Below are positions 36,052 to 42,257 of a DNA stretch of 64,000 nucleotides, piece after piece. Location: the NCBI RefSeq assembly GCF_001434115.1, contig NZ_AZDW01000013.1, forward strand, positions 248,001 through 312,000. Direction: 5' to 3'. The DNA comes from Levilactobacillus zymae DSM 19395 (GTDB taxonomy: Bacteria; Bacillota; Bacilli; Lactobacillales; Lactobacillaceae). The notes below the pieces were generated by a model. It did not search any database. It was not told the origin of the DNA and saw nothing but the letters and a program-made list of their open reading frames with translations. Made by a program: the position numbers and the translations under genes. Positions within the stretch are counted from its first letter, which is position 1. Each line of letters starts with the position of its first letter.

Positions 36052-36525
36052 TTATTTAACGCGTAAATAAAGTTCAGTTAGCCGGTTAGGTTGAGCAATA
36101 GTAATATGGTTTTTTGATACTACATGAATCGTAAGGTTAAGCACTTTAGAATACACGTTTAACCTATCACGTCCTGTATATATAGCGCTACCTTTAATTT
36201 GGTATTTCTTTTTTGATAACTGCTTATATTTTATATGTGTATACGGCGCCGCAACACCGACGTAATTAATCTTTTTATGCTTATTAAGCATTACGGAAAT
36301 CTGACTAGCAAAGGAATTCGTTAAATAGAATCGAGATTCTCTATATCCAGTAAAGTGCTTTCTTTTAGAATCGTCATAGTTTTTAAAAGCCCCACCATCC
36401 CATTTACCCCTGAGAGTTTTGGGAACGCCCTTGTGCCAGGTCGCGGCTTGAGCAATGTTAGGAACACAAAAGACAATGGACCACATAATGGCTAAAGCCA
36501 TGATTATTTTTAGTGATTTTTTCAT
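36052..36525 (-). CDS. Secreted protein of unknown function
   Basis: A 157-residue protein with a signal peptide (MKKSLKIIMALAIMWSIVFC, cleavage near AQAA-TW at 28). The mature part is lysine- and tyrosine-rich with WHKGVPKTLRGKWDG at its start, a pattern seen in small secreted lactobacillus proteins of unknown role. It is translated by a 4-nt overlap (ATGA) with the metalloprotease gene, so both are likely made and exported together. Base use is more AT-rich than average for the window. Confidence 0.7.
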   Translation of the reverse strand: MKKSLKIIMALAIMWSIVFCVPNIAQAATWHKGVPKTLRGKWDGGAFKNYDDSKRKHFTGYRESRFYLTNSFASQISVMLNKHKKINYVGVAAPYTHIKYKQLSKKKYQIKGSAIYTGRDRLNVYSKVLNLTIHVVSKNHITIAQPNRLTELYLRVK

Positions 36526-37151
36526 TTGATTGGTAACCCCTTATAAATAATCTTAAGACCTGCAATATCAGATTTTGATAATTTTGATGCCCGCCAGTAA
36601 TTCATAACTGAATCGGGATCACTAAAATTATGAGCCAGGCCTAATGCATGTCCGGTTTCATGAACGGCGACTTGACGCGAGTAAGACGGATGAGCTCGAT
36701 TCATGGCGGCGATATAAGGATCATGGGTTACGGTAGTTCCTTTGTAGTCAATGTGGGTATTAATATTACCGGGGCCACCATGACCAGAAGCATCCAAACC
36801 ATTTTCCTTCTTTTCATTGGTGTACATTCCAAAACGTAAAACTTGATGACGACCTGTTTGAGATGGTTTCATAGATGCTGGCTTAGGTTTTAAGTACACA
36901 ACTTTAGTGCGATTAAAATCTTTGATTGCATATCTGAAAGCTGATTTGGCCTTAGCTGGCATTTGTGAATCAAAGTAGTAATAGTATGTACGATTAAAAT
37001 GATTTTTGGAATATAACGGAGTAGTTGGTATTGTGCCTAATTTGAAGGGTTTAATTGAAAAACTATAGTCTGCTTTTGCCGATATGTTGTCGAATTGACA
37101 AAATAGTCCTAGCACTAGTATCCCTAAACCAAAGGCGTACTTTTTTAACAA
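36522..37151 (-). CDS. Matrixin-like secreted zinc metalloprotease
   Basis: A 209-residue exported protease. A hydrophobic start (residues 5-25) serves as signal peptide. The zinc site is HETGHALGLAH (HExxHxxGxxH, near residue 170), followed by Met-turn DSVMNYW. HNF-DP spacing is typical of matrixins. A related protein ends at base 290. I use TTG 37151 because GGGAGTG lies 6 nt before it; a GTG at 37160 touches that ribosome site and is less likely. The substrate may be a surface protein or the co-encoded partner (inference). Confidence 0.8.
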   Translation of the reverse strand: MLKKYAFGLGILVLGLFCQFDNISAKADYSFSIKPFKLGTIPTTPLYSKNHFNRTYYYYFDSQMPAKAKSAFRYAIKDFNRTKVVYLKPKPASMKPSQTGRHQVLRFGMYTNEKKENGLDASGHGGPGNINTHIDYKGTTVTHDPYIAAMNRAHPSYSRQVAVHETGHALGLAHNFSDPDSVMNYWRASKLSKSDIAGLKIIYKGLPIK

Positions 37152-37543
37152 ATAAATCACTCCCTATTGATATTAAGATCCCTATATAGTAAATTTTATC
37201 ACATATTCTATTGGTTTAGACCTACACTGTAACCTAAAGTAGTCGATTTATTACTGCGAATATAAGGTTATTGAAGCCAATAAGCTCGAAAAATTTAGTG
37301 AATTAGATATAGTGAGCTTCAAGGCTATTTAATATCATACTCAAAAAAGCGGTCAGTTGGCCGCTTTTGGGGTTTTAGAGTATTTAATAGATTTATCTAA
37401 TTATCCTTATACATATCTAACTCTATGACAGCAAACCGTCAGTTTTTTAATTTATTGATTAACGCCACAGTAATATCAGATGCTATATTGCAATGAACGA
37501 ATAATCTTATCAAATTCAATCAAAAGCGTGGGTTGACTTAAAC
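37152..37543. other. Intergenic, with a terminator at 37345-37368
   Basis: About 390 bp, AT-rich. The only clear element is a hairpin AAAAGCGG and CCGCTTTT at 37345-37368, minus-strand T run following, which ends the dehydrogenase/aminotransferase operon some 175 nt after its last stop. A short plus-strand open run at 37260-37328 has no start or ribosome site. I see no gene here. Confidence 0.6.
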
Positions 37544-38536
37544 TTAAATCGTGTGTTCGCTGGTCCCGCCCTGCACGATAGTCAACACGTCGTCGAGACT
37601 AATGTCGACCATGTTCTTGACGGCCAGGTTGGTGTAAAAGCCCACGTGCGGGGTAATCATCACGTTAGGCATCTGCATCAACTGGGCAATCAACGGGTCC
37701 TGTAACACGTCGTCGGAGTGGTCCTGGTTAAATAACGCCGCTTCGCCTTCGACCGTGTCGAGCGCCGCCCCGGCCAGTTCCCCGGCCTTTAAGGCGGCGA
37801 CCAAATCGGCCGTCACGATGACCGGTCCCCGTGAGGCGTTGACCACGAAGGCGTCATTTTTCATCTGCTTGAACGCGGCTGCGTCTAATAAGCCCTGCGA
37901 CGTGGGGTTCAGGTCCACGTGGAGGTCCACCACGTCGGCTTGGCGTAACAGGTCTTCTTTCGTATCTACATAGGTCAACACGTCCGTTAATTCGGCGTGG
38001 TGGACCGGGTCAAAGGCAATTACCTTGGCGCCTAACCCGTGGAACAACCGGGCGGCCACGCCCCCAATGCGGCCGGCCCCGATGATGCCGACCGTTAACG
38101 AGCGAATCTCGCGGGCCTGCAGCCCGGCCCACTGGAAGTTCTGCTGGCCGATGCGCCGGTCGAACAGTTCCAGGTTGCGAATCAACCGCATGGTCTGGGC
38201 AACCGCCATTTCGGCCACCGAATTCGGGGAATAGGCCGGCACGTTGGTCACCGTTAACCCGGCCGCCTTGGCCGCCGCCACGTCGATGGTGTCCACTCCC
38301 GCGGTCCGGCTGGTCAGTTGCTTAAGGCCCCAGTCGGCTAACTGCTGGTAGACGCTGGGGTCATCCCCGATGGCACTACGTTGTTGGATGATCAGGCCGT
38401 CGTACCCCTGGGCCAGGTGGGCGGTGTCCGGGTGAAACTCCAAGTCGTTGGTATCGACCTGGACCTGATGCCGGTCCGCCCAGTCGTGAATGGCGGCCTG
38501 TTCGTCGGGCCGTACGCTGTACATTAAAATTTTCAT
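37544..38536 (-). CDS. D-2-hydroxyacid dehydrogenase (D-LDH-like)
   Basis: A 330-residue NAD-dependent enzyme. The cofactor loop is GIIGAGRIGG near residue 150, the substrate arginine is in NASRGPVI near 232, the catalytic glutamate region is GAALDTVEGE near 257, and the histidine is in ITPHVGFYT near 296. D-LDH-type enzymes reduce 2-oxoacids; in lactobacilli this branch makes phenyllactate or hydroxyisocaproate. It begins 2 nt after the aminotransferase stop, so the pair works on the same oxoacids: transamination then reduction. Both follow the attenuator-like leader. Confidence 0.92.
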   Translation of the reverse strand: MKILMYSVRPDEQAAIHDWADRHQVQVDTNDLEFHPDTAHLAQGYDGLIIQQRSAIGDDPSVYQQLADWGLKQLTSRTAGVDTIDVAAAKAAGLTVTNVPAYSPNSVAEMAVAQTMRLIRNLELFDRRIGQQNFQWAGLQAREIRSLTVGIIGAGRIGGVAARLFHGLGAKVIAFDPVHHAELTDVLTYVDTKEDLLRQADVVDLHVDLNPTSQGLLDAAAFKQMKNDAFVVNASRGPVIVTADLVAALKAGELAGAALDTVEGEAALFNQDHSDDVLQDPLIAQLMQMPNVMITPHVGFYTNLAVKNMVDISLDDVLTIVQGGTSEHTI

Positions 38537-38538
38537 CG

Positions 38539-39738
38539 TTACGATTCCTCCTTGGTTAAGCCCTTCGCCGCCACGTAGGCCGTCATCCGTTCGACGGCCG
38601 TTTTCAAGTCGGCCATGGAAGCGGCGTAACTGATCCGCACGTAGCCTTCCCCACCGGGGCCAAACGAACTCCCGGGAATCAACGCCACGCGGGCCTCGTG
38701 GGCCAGTTCGCGACAGAAGGCCATACTGTCTTGCGGCAGGCCAGCCGGAATCTTACTGAAGAGGTAGAACGCCCCTTCCGGTTTCGCCGACTTGAACCCA
38801 ATCTGGTCCAGCGCGGCCACCAGGTAATCGCGGCGCGCCTGGTATTCCTGTTTCATTTTTTGTCCGTCATCGAGACCGTTAGCCAGCGCTTCGGTCGCCG
38901 CGGCTTGGGCGTTCGTGGTGGTCGACGTGATCGTGAATTGGTGAATCTTGCCCAGTTGGGCCGTGATGGCCTTTGGCGCACACATCAGGCCGATCCGCCA
39001 ACCGGTCATCGCGTGGGACTTGGAGACCCCGTTAAGCAGAATGGTCTGGTCCGGCAGGTACTGCGCAATCGACACGTGGGTCGCCCCGTAGGTCAGTTCG
39101 CTGTAAATCTCGTCGGACAAAACGAAGACCGGTTTATCGGCCAAGACGGCGGCTAACGCCTGCAGGTCGGCGGCTCGGTAAGTCACCCCGGTCGGGTTAG
39201 ACGGGAAGTTGAGCACGACGGCCTTGGTCTTGGGATGGGCGGCCAGGGTGGCTTTCAGCTTTTCGGGTGTTAAGACGAAACCGTCCGCCGAGGTATCCAT
39301 GAAGACCGGCACGGCCCCGTTGACCTGCGCCACGGCGATGTACAGTGGGAAAATCGGCGTGGGGATCAGGACCTCGTCGCCGGGATTTAGGATCGATGTT
39401 AACGCCGTGTAGATTCCCTCGGTGGCCCCGGCCGTGACGATGACTTCGGTGGCCGGGTCGTAGTGCAGGTCGTATTTGGTGGCTAAGAAGTTCGCCGCGG
39501 CCTGCCGCAACGCCGGCGTCCCGTTCGATGGTGCGTAGTGGCTCTCGTTGTTTTCGATACTGCGGATGGCAGCCTGTTTGACGTGTTCGGGTGTGTTGAA
39601 ATCGGGCTCGCCCAGCGTCAAGCGGACGATACCGGGGATGTTGGCGATTTCGGCGTTGAAGGCCAAGATGTCGGACGGTTGAATTCCGGCGATGGCACGA
39701 TTCATGTGGTGGGTTAAACTTTCGGGACTAATGGACAT
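38539..39738 (-). CDS. PLP-dependent aminotransferase class I/II (aromatic/PatA-like)
   Basis: A 399-residue aminotransferase. The PLP lysine is in NGVSKSHAMTGWRIG near 238, the PLP-contact aspartate in LSDEIYSELTYG near 206, and the family's NFPSNPTG near 175. Of subgroup I-gamma type (aromatic or branched substrates). It makes 2-oxoacids that the next gene can reduce. I take ATG 39738, which has GAGGAGG 9 nt upstream; the ATG at 39744 is too close to it. A leader with two terminator-like elements precedes it. Confidence 0.92.
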   Translation of the reverse strand: MSISPESLTHHMNRAIAGIQPSDILAFNAEIANIPGIVRLTLGEPDFNTPEHVKQAAIRSIENNESHYAPSNGTPALRQAAANFLATKYDLHYDPATEVIVTAGATEGIYTALTSILNPGDEVLIPTPIFPLYIAVAQVNGAVPVFMDTSADGFVLTPEKLKATLAAHPKTKAVVLNFPSNPTGVTYRAADLQALAAVLADKPVFVLSDEIYSELTYGATHVSIAQYLPDQTILLNGVSKSHAMTGWRIGLMCAPKAITAQLGKIHQFTITSTTTNAQAAATEALANGLDDGQKMKQEYQARRDYLVAALDQIGFKSAKPEGAFYLFSKIPAGLPQDSMAFCRELAHEARVALIPGSSFGPGGEGYVRISYAASMADLKTAVERMTAYVAAKGLTKEES

Positions 39739-39789
39739 AAACATTCCTCCTCAGATTGTGGATCAATGATGGCCGCGACATGACCAATT

Positions 39790-40049
39790 AAAAAACACAC
39801 CCTTAGCTGGTTAAACCAAGGGTGTGTTGCTTAAAAATCTGATGATGACACCCCTGGATTGAAATACATCCATGGGCGTTGGGACCTCACAAAAAACCTT
39901 TGGCACGCCGCATCGATGCAAAGCACAGAATCGTGTTTGCACCTCAGTAGCGGGCACAAACACTAGCGAAAATACCAAAGGGCGAAACGCGAGTTACCGT
40001 TTAACGTGATTCCCAATAATGTCATATGATGAGCTCCTCATTAATTCTT
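39790..40049 (-). promoter_or_regulatory. Structured attenuator-like leader of the aminotransferase operon
   Basis: Transcribed leader of about 260 nt. In order: a 20-codon ORF (39963-40025); a hairpin GTGTTTGTGCC/GGTGCAAACAC (39933-39963); a stem of CCTTTGGTA (39973-39981) with TGCCAAAGG (39897-39905) followed by six U; hairpin CCATGGAT/ATCCAGGG (about 39852-39876); and a last terminator AACACACCCTT/AAGGGTGTGTT plus U run (39790-39828). GGGGTGT (39848-39854) can pair with ACACACC of that terminator and so act as antiterminator. No T-box or SAM consensus is visible. Exact fold is my hand pairing. Confidence 0.65.
39963..40025 (-). CDS. Candidate leader peptide with W-Y-F run
   Basis: A 20-residue ORF, MTLLGITLNGNSRFALWYFR, with GAGGAG 8-10 nt upstream and a strong promoter before it. 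It ends with Phe-Ala-Leu-Trp-Tyr-Phe-Arg, so all three aromatic residues are adjacent. The codons for Ala-Leu-Trp-Tyr form the 5' arm of the first terminator-like stem, so a ribosome stalled there would stop that stem from forming. This is the logic of classical amino-acid attenuators. Function is inference. Confidence 0.55.
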   Translation of the reverse strand: MTLLGITLNGNSRFALWYFR

Positions 40050-40055
40050 AATCTA

Positions 40056-40084
40056 ACTATAATGTTCTGCCCGGTCCCTGTCAA
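40056..40084 (-). promoter_or_regulatory. Promoter of the aminotransferase operon
   Basis: -35 TTGACA (40079-40084), 17-nt spacer, -10 TATAGT (40056-40061), minus strand. Start expected near 40049. Confidence 0.8.
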
Positions 40085-40709: not shown

Positions 40710-42257
40710 TTATGCTTTGATCAACTTCACAAAGTTCTTTTGAATCCAACGTAGGTGTCCACGTGGACTTTTGATTTGATAGAAAGTTTTAACCTTGCCA
40801 TTAACTTTAATTTTAGCCGTCTTCATTAATTTCCACTTGGCCTTAGGGTGAAATCCGGTTTTCCCTGATTGGCCAACTTTATGTTTAAGCTTCATATCAT
40901 AGAAGTAGGCTCGATGCCCCTTTAAGTGAACAAATTGAGCCCTTTTAATCTTCTTCACAGATATAATTTTAACCTTAGTCCGTGCTTTCTTATGTTTTGT
41001 AGCCTTCTGAGTTGGTTGGCTTACGGTACTTGAATTTACTTTATTAGAAGTACCAATTGATTGATTTTCAGTAATTGGTTTCTTAATCGATTCAATTACT
41101 TTATTAGCAGGTTTAGGCTCTGATGGTACAACATTTACCGATGTATTAGGTGTTACTACGTTAGGGGTAGATGGTGCCGGATAAGCTGTATTTTTACCAT
41201 CATTAGAAACTAAGTATTTAGATTTCAGTAGCTCCTGTTGTTTGGGTGAAAAGTCCAGTGCCTTGGTGATATAGTTTTGCATGTCACCATAATATTCTTT
41301 GATTTCACGATAATATTCCTTGATCCAGCTATAATCAACGTGATGCCAATATGAATCTGACAACATATAATCGTAAGCAGCCGTTTTAGGATCAATCCCC
41401 AGCGCTGACATCAAGATGAAACTGGCAATACCTGTCCGGTCTTTGCCTGAAGAACAATGAAATAGTGTAGCACCTGAATTAGTAAGCAATCTATTAAGAA
41501 ATGTATGGTATGCATCTAGCGAGGTCTTACTAAATTCTACTTGATGATTATAAAAGCCGCCACCCTGTGCTGGTGTTGGATTATCAGGAAACATTCCATT
41601 TGCATCGGTATTAAATCCATTGTCAGCAGTATCACCTAGAACTGAAAGATTTTCCCAGGAAACGCCAGCAATTTTTCTATCCGGTCGGCTATTAATTTGT
41701 CCCGGAGTTCGTAAATCAATAATATGCTTTAAGCCGTCTTTTAATAGAATTTGCATACCCGTATCTGATAATTTATCCAAAGATTCCGAGCGAATTAACT
41801 GATTAGACCTGATTTTCCATTTTTTATTGGCCGTTACATAGCCACCTAAGTCACGATCGTTAGTTAAACCGGTCCCTTTAATCCGGGCCCCTGGCTGACC
41901 ATCTGTTGGAATGACCAACACGGAAACACCATAACCATCGACCTTGTCTTTATCATTAGTTATTTCACCAATATCTGACAGTTTGTCTGGTAATGGTGCC
42001 CATACGCTGGGATCTAGAGTGGGATTTACTTTGGGCTTAGCTTTCTTTTTATCAGTTATCCCGCTATTGTTAGCTGGCTGTTTAGCAGATGGACTATTTT
42101 GTTTTTTACTTGAATCCTTATTCGATGCACTCGTATCATTCTTCTCAACAGGTTGTTGGCTAGTTGCTGCCAGTGTGGAAACAATTGGCATTCCAGCACT
42201 AGTTAAAGTCAAGGTTAGCATTGCGACACTTAACGTACGCTGTAATCTATGATTCAT
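40710..42257 (-). CDS. Secreted tyrosine phosphatase with wall-binding C-terminus
   Basis: A 515-residue exported protein. A signal peptide ends near LAATS (31), followed by a lysine/serine-rich linker. A Y_phosphatase3-type domain (about 95-330) has the C-x5-R active site HCSSGKDRTG with C268 and R274, and the RDLGG element near 135. The C-terminus (from 430) is a KxRRxRV-like SH3/GW module for wall attachment (KGHRAYFYDMKLKHKVGQSG). Family members in Listeria and mycobacteria dephosphorylate phospho-tyrosine or phosphoinositides. The gene is AT-rich, unlike its neighbours, and stands alone. Confidence 0.85.
   Translation of the reverse strand: MNHRLQRTLSVAMLTLTLTSAGMPIVSTLAATSQQPVEKNDTSASNKDSSKKQNSPSAKQPANNSGITDKKKAKPKVNPTLDPSVWAPLPDKLSDIGEITNDKDKVDGYGVSVLVIPTDGQPGARIKGTGLTNDRDLGGYVTANKKWKIRSNQLIRSESLDKLSDTGMQILLKDGLKHIIDLRTPGQINSRPDRKIAGVSWENLSVLGDTADNGFNTDANGMFPDNPTPAQGGGFYNHQVEFSKTSLDAYHTFLNRLLTNSGATLFHCSSGKDRTGIASFILMSALGIDPKTAAYDYMLSDSYWHHVDYSWIKEYYREIKEYYGDMQNYITKALDFSPKQQELLKSKYLVSNDGKNTAYPAPSTPNVVTPNTSVNVVPSEPKPANKVIESIKKPITENQSIGTSNKVNSSTVSQPTQKATKHKKARTKVKIISVKKIKRAQFVHLKGHRAYFYDMKLKHKVGQSGKTGFHPKAKWKLMKTAKIKVNGKVKTFYQIKSPRGHLRWIQKNFVKLIKA

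Follow-up and report, generated by a model that had tools for sequence, protein, structure and literature searches.

The aromatic leader region of the window (the whole 64,000-nucleotide stretch of Levilactobacillus zymae DNA that was analysed) raises the question of whether a short open reading frame (ORF) with adjacent Trp, Tyr and Phe codons, together with the mutually exclusive helices that follow it, forms a device by which translation controls transcription of a downstream operon. The verdict reached is that the leader is a genuine, widely conserved leader-peptide attenuator, with the reservation that stalling and termination are without experimental data. The ORF, its conservation, the pairings and the target genes can be read from the sequence; stalling, termination, the direction of regulation and the response to scarce charged tRNA are inferred, in the absence of expression, ribosome-profiling or starvation data. 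The elements on which the argument turns are as follows.

40056 to 40084, minus strand: promoter TTGACA-17-TATAGT, kept in aligned relatives
40034 to 40039, minus strand: Shine-Dalgarno sequence GAGGAG of the leader ORF, unchanged across 27 aligned leaders
39963 to 40025, minus strand: leader peptide ORF, 20 codons, MTLLGITLNGNSRFALWYFR followed by a stop codon, with orthologous peptides in many genera
39966 to 39983, minus strand: segment A (codons A-L-W-Y-F-R), partner of E
39952 to 39965, minus strand: segment B, which starts with the stop codon UAG, partner of C
39933 to 39945, minus strand: segment C, partner of B or D
39907 to 39926, minus strand: segment D, partner of C or F
39891 to 39906, minus strand: segment E plus U6, 3' arm of A:E, candidate terminator 1
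39867 to 39880, minus strand: segment F, partner of D or G
39847 to 39861, minus strand: segment G, which includes GGGGUGU, partner of F or H
39813 to 39828, minus strand: segment H, 5' arm of terminator 2, partner of G or I
39790 to 39807, minus strand: segment I, 3' arm of terminator 2 with its U tract
38539 to 39744, minus strand: class I/II aminotransferase, best NCBIfam model PRK07309 at 564 bits, just under the cut-off of 576
37544 to 38536, minus strand: D-2-hydroxyacid dehydrogenase, closest solved relative 4XKJ

The initial annotation of this region had described several of these elements, and all those that it described are present: the 20-codon ORF ending in ALWYFR lies at 40025-39963 on the minus strand, and the promoter is there, matching the consensus at 11 of 12 positions rather than perfectly as had been claimed. 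The first stem pairs the Leu-Trp-Tyr codons (CCUUUGGUA) as its 5' arm with UGCCAAAGG, after which six U follow, and the second terminator beside the gene spans 39828-39794 and also ends in six U; the possible antiterminator GGGGTGT, read as GGGGUGU in segment G, is complementary to the 5' arm of that terminator. The structure of the leader is beyond chance, the minimum free energy of the 301-nt leader being -107.3 kcal/mol compared to -79.6 +/- 5.2 kcal/mol in dinucleotide shuffles (z = -5.3). A second small ORF over segments F to H (MDVFQSRGVIIRFLSNTPLV in the window) was rejected because it is not kept in relatives.

The reading preferred here, which is regarded as highly probable, is a ribosome-mediated transcription attenuator of the his/phe type, consisting of seven overlapping segments (B, C, D, F, G, H and I) and an outer helix A:E. 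Three tests of membership in this class are met: a short ORF with a Shine-Dalgarno sequence lies just 5' of the structures (a prediction from sequence, for which there are no translation data), its run of codons specifies an amino acid with which the operon is concerned, and mutually exclusive helices make a terminator ahead of the gene dependent on where the ribosome stands. Two layouts of such leaders are found, a five-segment one (A, B, E, C, D, T5, T3) and the seven-segment one of the window (A, B, C, D, E, F, G, H, I), in which the alternative helices are B:C, C:D, D:F, F:G, G:H and H:I, or D:T5 and T5:T3. Because the number of segments after the ribosome is odd in both layouts, the sign of regulation would be the same in each.

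In this scheme the ON state would comprise B:C, D:F and G:H, and the OFF state C:D, F:G and the terminator H:I. When charged aromatic tRNA is ample, the ribosome would reach the stop codon in B and cover that segment, upon which C:D and F:G would form and H:I would end transcription. When charged Phe or Tyr tRNA (in the window perhaps also Trp) is scarce, the ribosome would stall upstream and block A:E; B:C would then form, D would pair with F and G with H, and the operon would be transcribed. In the absence of translation, helix A:E, in which the aromatic codons are paired, would together with its U tract probably act as terminator 1 and silence the untranslated RNA.

The dependence of the helices on ribosome position was examined by folding the window's leader as far as segment H while a model ribosome occupied 28 nt. 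With the A-site at Leu16 or Trp17, helices B:C, D:F and G:H are obtained (11.6, 9.6 and 10.0 pairs at Trp17), and with the A-site anywhere from Tyr18 to the stop codon, C:D and F:G are obtained and G:H is nearly lost (10.9, 8.1 and 1.8 pairs with the ribosome at the stop), so that the window's leader switches between codons 17 and 18, the exact switching codon being dependent on the ribosome footprint assumed. When no ribosome is present, the fold contains A:E and B:C and would retain G:H, which makes terminator 1 (A:E plus U6) the candidate silencer of untranslated RNA, a role that would account for the presence of two terminators. The initial annotation had stalling block terminator 1; this has to be modified, as the main switch appears to be the chain of overlapping helices that decides the fate of terminator 2, with terminator 1 probably confined to untranslated RNA. 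Comparable switching is seen in the ribosome-position folding of four relatives (L044, L054, L262 and L265), and three others (L036, L042 and L045) do not switch with ribosome position in equilibrium folding, for which reason co-transcriptional kinetics must be assumed.

The pairings themselves were evaluated by comparing native duplex energies with those of cross-locus duplexes, using about one leader per genus. In the seven-segment set, native pairing is the stronger for A:E (-10.4 versus -5.8), F:G (-14.9 versus -9.6), G:H (-15.1 versus -8.7) and D:F (-12.5 versus -10.1, p 0.027), and also for H:I, and in the five-segment set p is 0.00005 for all helices. B:C and C:D are without covariation support in the seven-segment aminotransferase group because B, C and D hardly vary there. 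The predicted antiterminator is the best partner of the 5' arm of the last terminator, taken from anywhere 3' of the ribosome site, in 19 of 19 cases (Fisher p 3e-6 and 5e-8), and the predicted partner is the strongest upstream partner of each segment in 6-8 of the 8 leaders with seven segments and in 10-11 of the 11 with five. Among 26 aligned leaders of the transporter type described below, 88-98% of cells are paired in the seven helices, compared to 21-61% when the arms are slid by 1-3 columns, and every helix contains double changes. The native pairings thus exceed the cross-locus, shuffled and slid controls, with the caveat that the segments were delimited by hand and that related sequences are not independent.

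These data also bear on an improbable alternative in which A:E with its U6 is the only regulated terminator, with the later segments and terminator 2 forming a barrier that is constitutive or unrelated. The A:E pairing is indeed conserved and covaries with the codons (a C-G to U-A compensation separates the window from its closest relative), and U6 follows it in the window, but a U tract 3' of E is not universal; many relatives lack it, yet keep D:F, F:G and G:H with compensation.

Attenuation by a ribosome at aromatic codons, as the initial annotation had proposed, is supported by aromatic leader peptides that occupy the corresponding position across many genera, together with the conserved pairings, and by the fact that the codons follow the target, with Trp before trpB and TrpX-like genes and Ile before a branched-chain aminotransferase. 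The operon is present in only 3 of 36 genomes of the window's genus, all three of which have the leader. Peptide and stems, whose conservation had been named at the outset as a check on the proposal, recur at 75-80% DNA identity in relatives from another genus and, with different sequence, across many further genera. Leader peptides lie 5' of aminotransferase orthologues in Lactiplantibacillus, Agrilactobacillus, Secundilactobacillus, Loigolactobacillus, Lentilactobacillus, Pediococcus, Liquorilactobacillus, Weissella, Bombilactobacillus, Sporolactobacillus and others; examples, each running to its stop codon, are ..SFYFWYFR, ..CRYYFWFFQI, ..NNFYYYFGFFR and ..WRYYFRFFM. In a leader pattern scan of 398 family genomes, the aminotransferase follows 49 of the 60 matches that were fetched.

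The Trp-Tyr-Phe run stressed in the initial annotation is conserved only in part. The Phe and Tyr residues that flank its middle residue are kept in relatives, and the middle residue (W, G, R, Y or S), which is Trp in the window and Ser, Arg, Gly or Tyr in relatives, covaries with segment E, the pairing partner of its codon. Because the two change in step, the window's Trp would be at least partly dictated by base pairing. The signal across the family is Phe/Tyr and not Trp; stalling at Trp17 may still be relevant in the window's own leader. Matches to the pattern YYFWFFFA/FYFWFFFA in two other genera (L195-L197) were rejected as leaders, since they lie just 5' of another gene, whose product we take to be RpoB, and the weak peptide-model matches L227-L229, L290, L291 and L299 were likewise rejected. 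Separately, Bifidobacterium relatives of the aminotransferase (L051-L053, 58-59% identity), followed by the dehydrogenase, have upstream a small ORF, MQGTRFTYWWHGFDL, closed by a stop codon.

A peptide profile extends the family beyond this operon, to leaders that precede TrpX-like ABC transporter genes, both within the window's genus and in further families of the order, and to leaders 5' of DAHP synthase and transketolase genes; the leader type also precedes aroE and pheA genes across Lactobacillales. At two loci (L286 and L293), a leader ending in ..NNSYYYFWFM and a stop codon, with an attenuator-like structure, lies 5' of a transketolase gene. The transporter-type leaders match Rfam family RF02863 ("Enterococcus sRNA 2410"), which has matches in 130 of 246 genomes of the order and whose gathering threshold is met by these relatives and not by the window. 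Of the 36 RF02863 loci that were fetched (L325-L364), 35 encode an aromatic (Phe/Tyr) leader peptide, such as one ending in ..QLNNYYFSYFR, mostly terminating at model position 17, and the genes that follow these 35 are TrpX-like or encode shikimate dehydrogenase or prephenate dehydratase; a strict leader pattern with a Shine-Dalgarno sequence fits 31 of the 36 and none of 1800 control windows. The remaining locus (L350) encodes MKTFSTHTFKLATIISIIR (..LATIISIIR, then a stop codon), with Ile codons, before a branched-chain aminotransferase, and is a natural codon swap. RF02863 therefore looks like a misfiled attenuator.

The trpB motif, RF04312, scores above its cut-off in 52 of 295 genomes of the order (its gathering threshold is not met in the window), and all 29 loci examined (L365-L393) have a Trp-codon leader peptide 9-27 nt before the model start, typically ending in SWQNWRR and a stop codon. 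The pattern W(Q/N)xW fits 26 of these 29 loci, compared to 5 of 1229 control windows, and this riboswitch candidate is probably a Trp attenuator. Sub-cut-off matches outside the order (L353-L355) were rejected, as they are plain terminators without a leader. It is quite likely that in Lactobacillales a single modular attenuator, with an exchangeable codon cassette (Phe/Tyr, Trp or Ile) on a chain of overlapping segments, governs an amino acid regulon of uptake, shikimate, Phe, Tyr and Trp genes, of which RF02863, RF04312 and the window's leader would be three branches.

It is very unlikely that the leader is a riboswitch for a small molecule, or an RNA that binds some other ligand, and that its ORF is incidental. 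A conserved complex structure with a terminator would fit such a reading, and the trpB motif (RF04312, SRC-39-1) has been rated a strong riboswitch candidate, without a classic attenuator being ruled out by its authors (PMC11109978). Against this, the ORF is kept as a peptide whose codons fit the target gene (Phe/Tyr, Trp or Ile), and the segments vary freely while remaining complementary, leaving scant room for a fixed ligand pocket. The match to a known riboswitch model that would have counted against the initial annotation did not appear: no Rfam family matches the window's leader, a snoU61 hit at E 0.23 being due to chance. It is scarcely credible that the leader responds to an aromatic amino acid as a T-box or through tRNA binding of another kind, the GGGUGG that relatives carry in segment G being a degenerate T-box; AAGGGUGG in Lactiplantibacillus leaders does look like the T-box sequence AGGGUGGNACCGCG, but this likeness was rejected because a search of the window and 15 relatives returned no Rfam match, so that the T-box score required for membership is not reached, the specifier stem is absent, the window has GGGGUGU, and in other genera segment G is free to change along with F and H. 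That the small peptide is itself the functional product of the ORF, or that the leader is a gene for a trans-acting sRNA, has little beyond the Rfam filing of RF02863 as an sRNA in its favour and is hardly tenable, given that the leader lies 5' of and in line with genes for aromatic or other amino acids, that a terminator ends it before the gene, and that its codons track the target. TRAP regulation is considered unlikely, as the conserved elements are paired segments; G/UAG triplets were not scored.

The physiological role of the attenuator is inferred from its operon, which provides the cell with an aromatic aminotransferase together with a D-2-hydroxyacid dehydrogenase. Relatives of the dehydrogenase sit after the aminotransferase in 23 fetched loci, and its closest solved relative, 4XKJ, is DLDH744, a D-lactate dehydrogenase of Sporolactobacillus inulinus that converts phenylpyruvate to D-phenyllactate only (PMC4580590). 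The phenyllactate pathway as the physiology of the operon remains an inference. DAHP synthase and prephenate dehydrogenase (tyrA) are encoded in the window's genome and prephenate dehydratase is not, from which it is inferred that an aromatic aminotransferase would have a use in tyrosine synthesis at least. A paralogous aminotransferase of the same genome (L002, 52% identity) has no aromatic leader within 500 bases. Elsewhere in the window, also on the minus strand, are a predicted secreted protein with the metzincin-type zinc protease motif HETGHALGLAH (36522-37160) and a predicted secreted protein of the tyrosine-phosphatase family (PF13350) with a long linker and a basic C-terminus (40710-42257).

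If attenuation holds, it would account for the control of aromatic amino acid uptake, synthesis and turnover in lactic acid bacteria, the last of these with a likely path to D-phenyllactate, which is antimicrobial and occurs in fermented foods. Two catalogued families, one filed as a small RNA and the other as a riboswitch candidate of unknown ligand, would be reassigned to a directly testable mechanism, for which natural codon-swap variants (Phe/Tyr, Trp and Ile) are available on one scaffold.

The kind of regulation is known. In the enteric his, pheA and trp attenuators, the leader peptide contains codons for the end product, its stop codon lies beside the first pairing segment, and alternating overlapping helices, which in his also form a multi-segment chain, end in a terminator. 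The window's leader shares the related codons, the placement of the stop codon and the alternating helices with these systems; it differs in taxa and sequence, in its seven segments after the ribosome site, in the outer helix A:E that pairs the codons, in its second terminator and in its target, an aminotransferase/hydroxyacid dehydrogenase operon. No aromatic leader-peptide attenuator of lactic acid bacteria was found in the literature, although subscription papers were mostly outside the search and absence is not proof; within the literature searched, the variant, the taxa and the regulon seem new. Among Firmicutes, ribosome-mediated attenuators are known for other amino acids and operons, with leader peptides for branched-chain amino acids in S. 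aureus, Listeria and Lactococcus (PMC6123439) and for His in Bacillus (PMC2965389; see also PMC9413887). The uORFC-13-1 motif 5' of aroF in Acholeplasma (PMC8632094), an upstream-ORF candidate, resembles the window's leader in placing Phe codon(s) ahead of a terminator and of a gene of the shikimate pathway, in other taxa and with a simpler structure. RF02863, filed as a small RNA and not as an attenuator, is the transporter, aroE and pheA version of the same device, which the window's aminotransferase-type leader does not match, and the trpB motif, 5' of TrpX-like transporters and trpB, is a related but shorter scaffold with its antiterminator in P1, whose leader peptides with W(Q/N)xW codons make it the Trp version.
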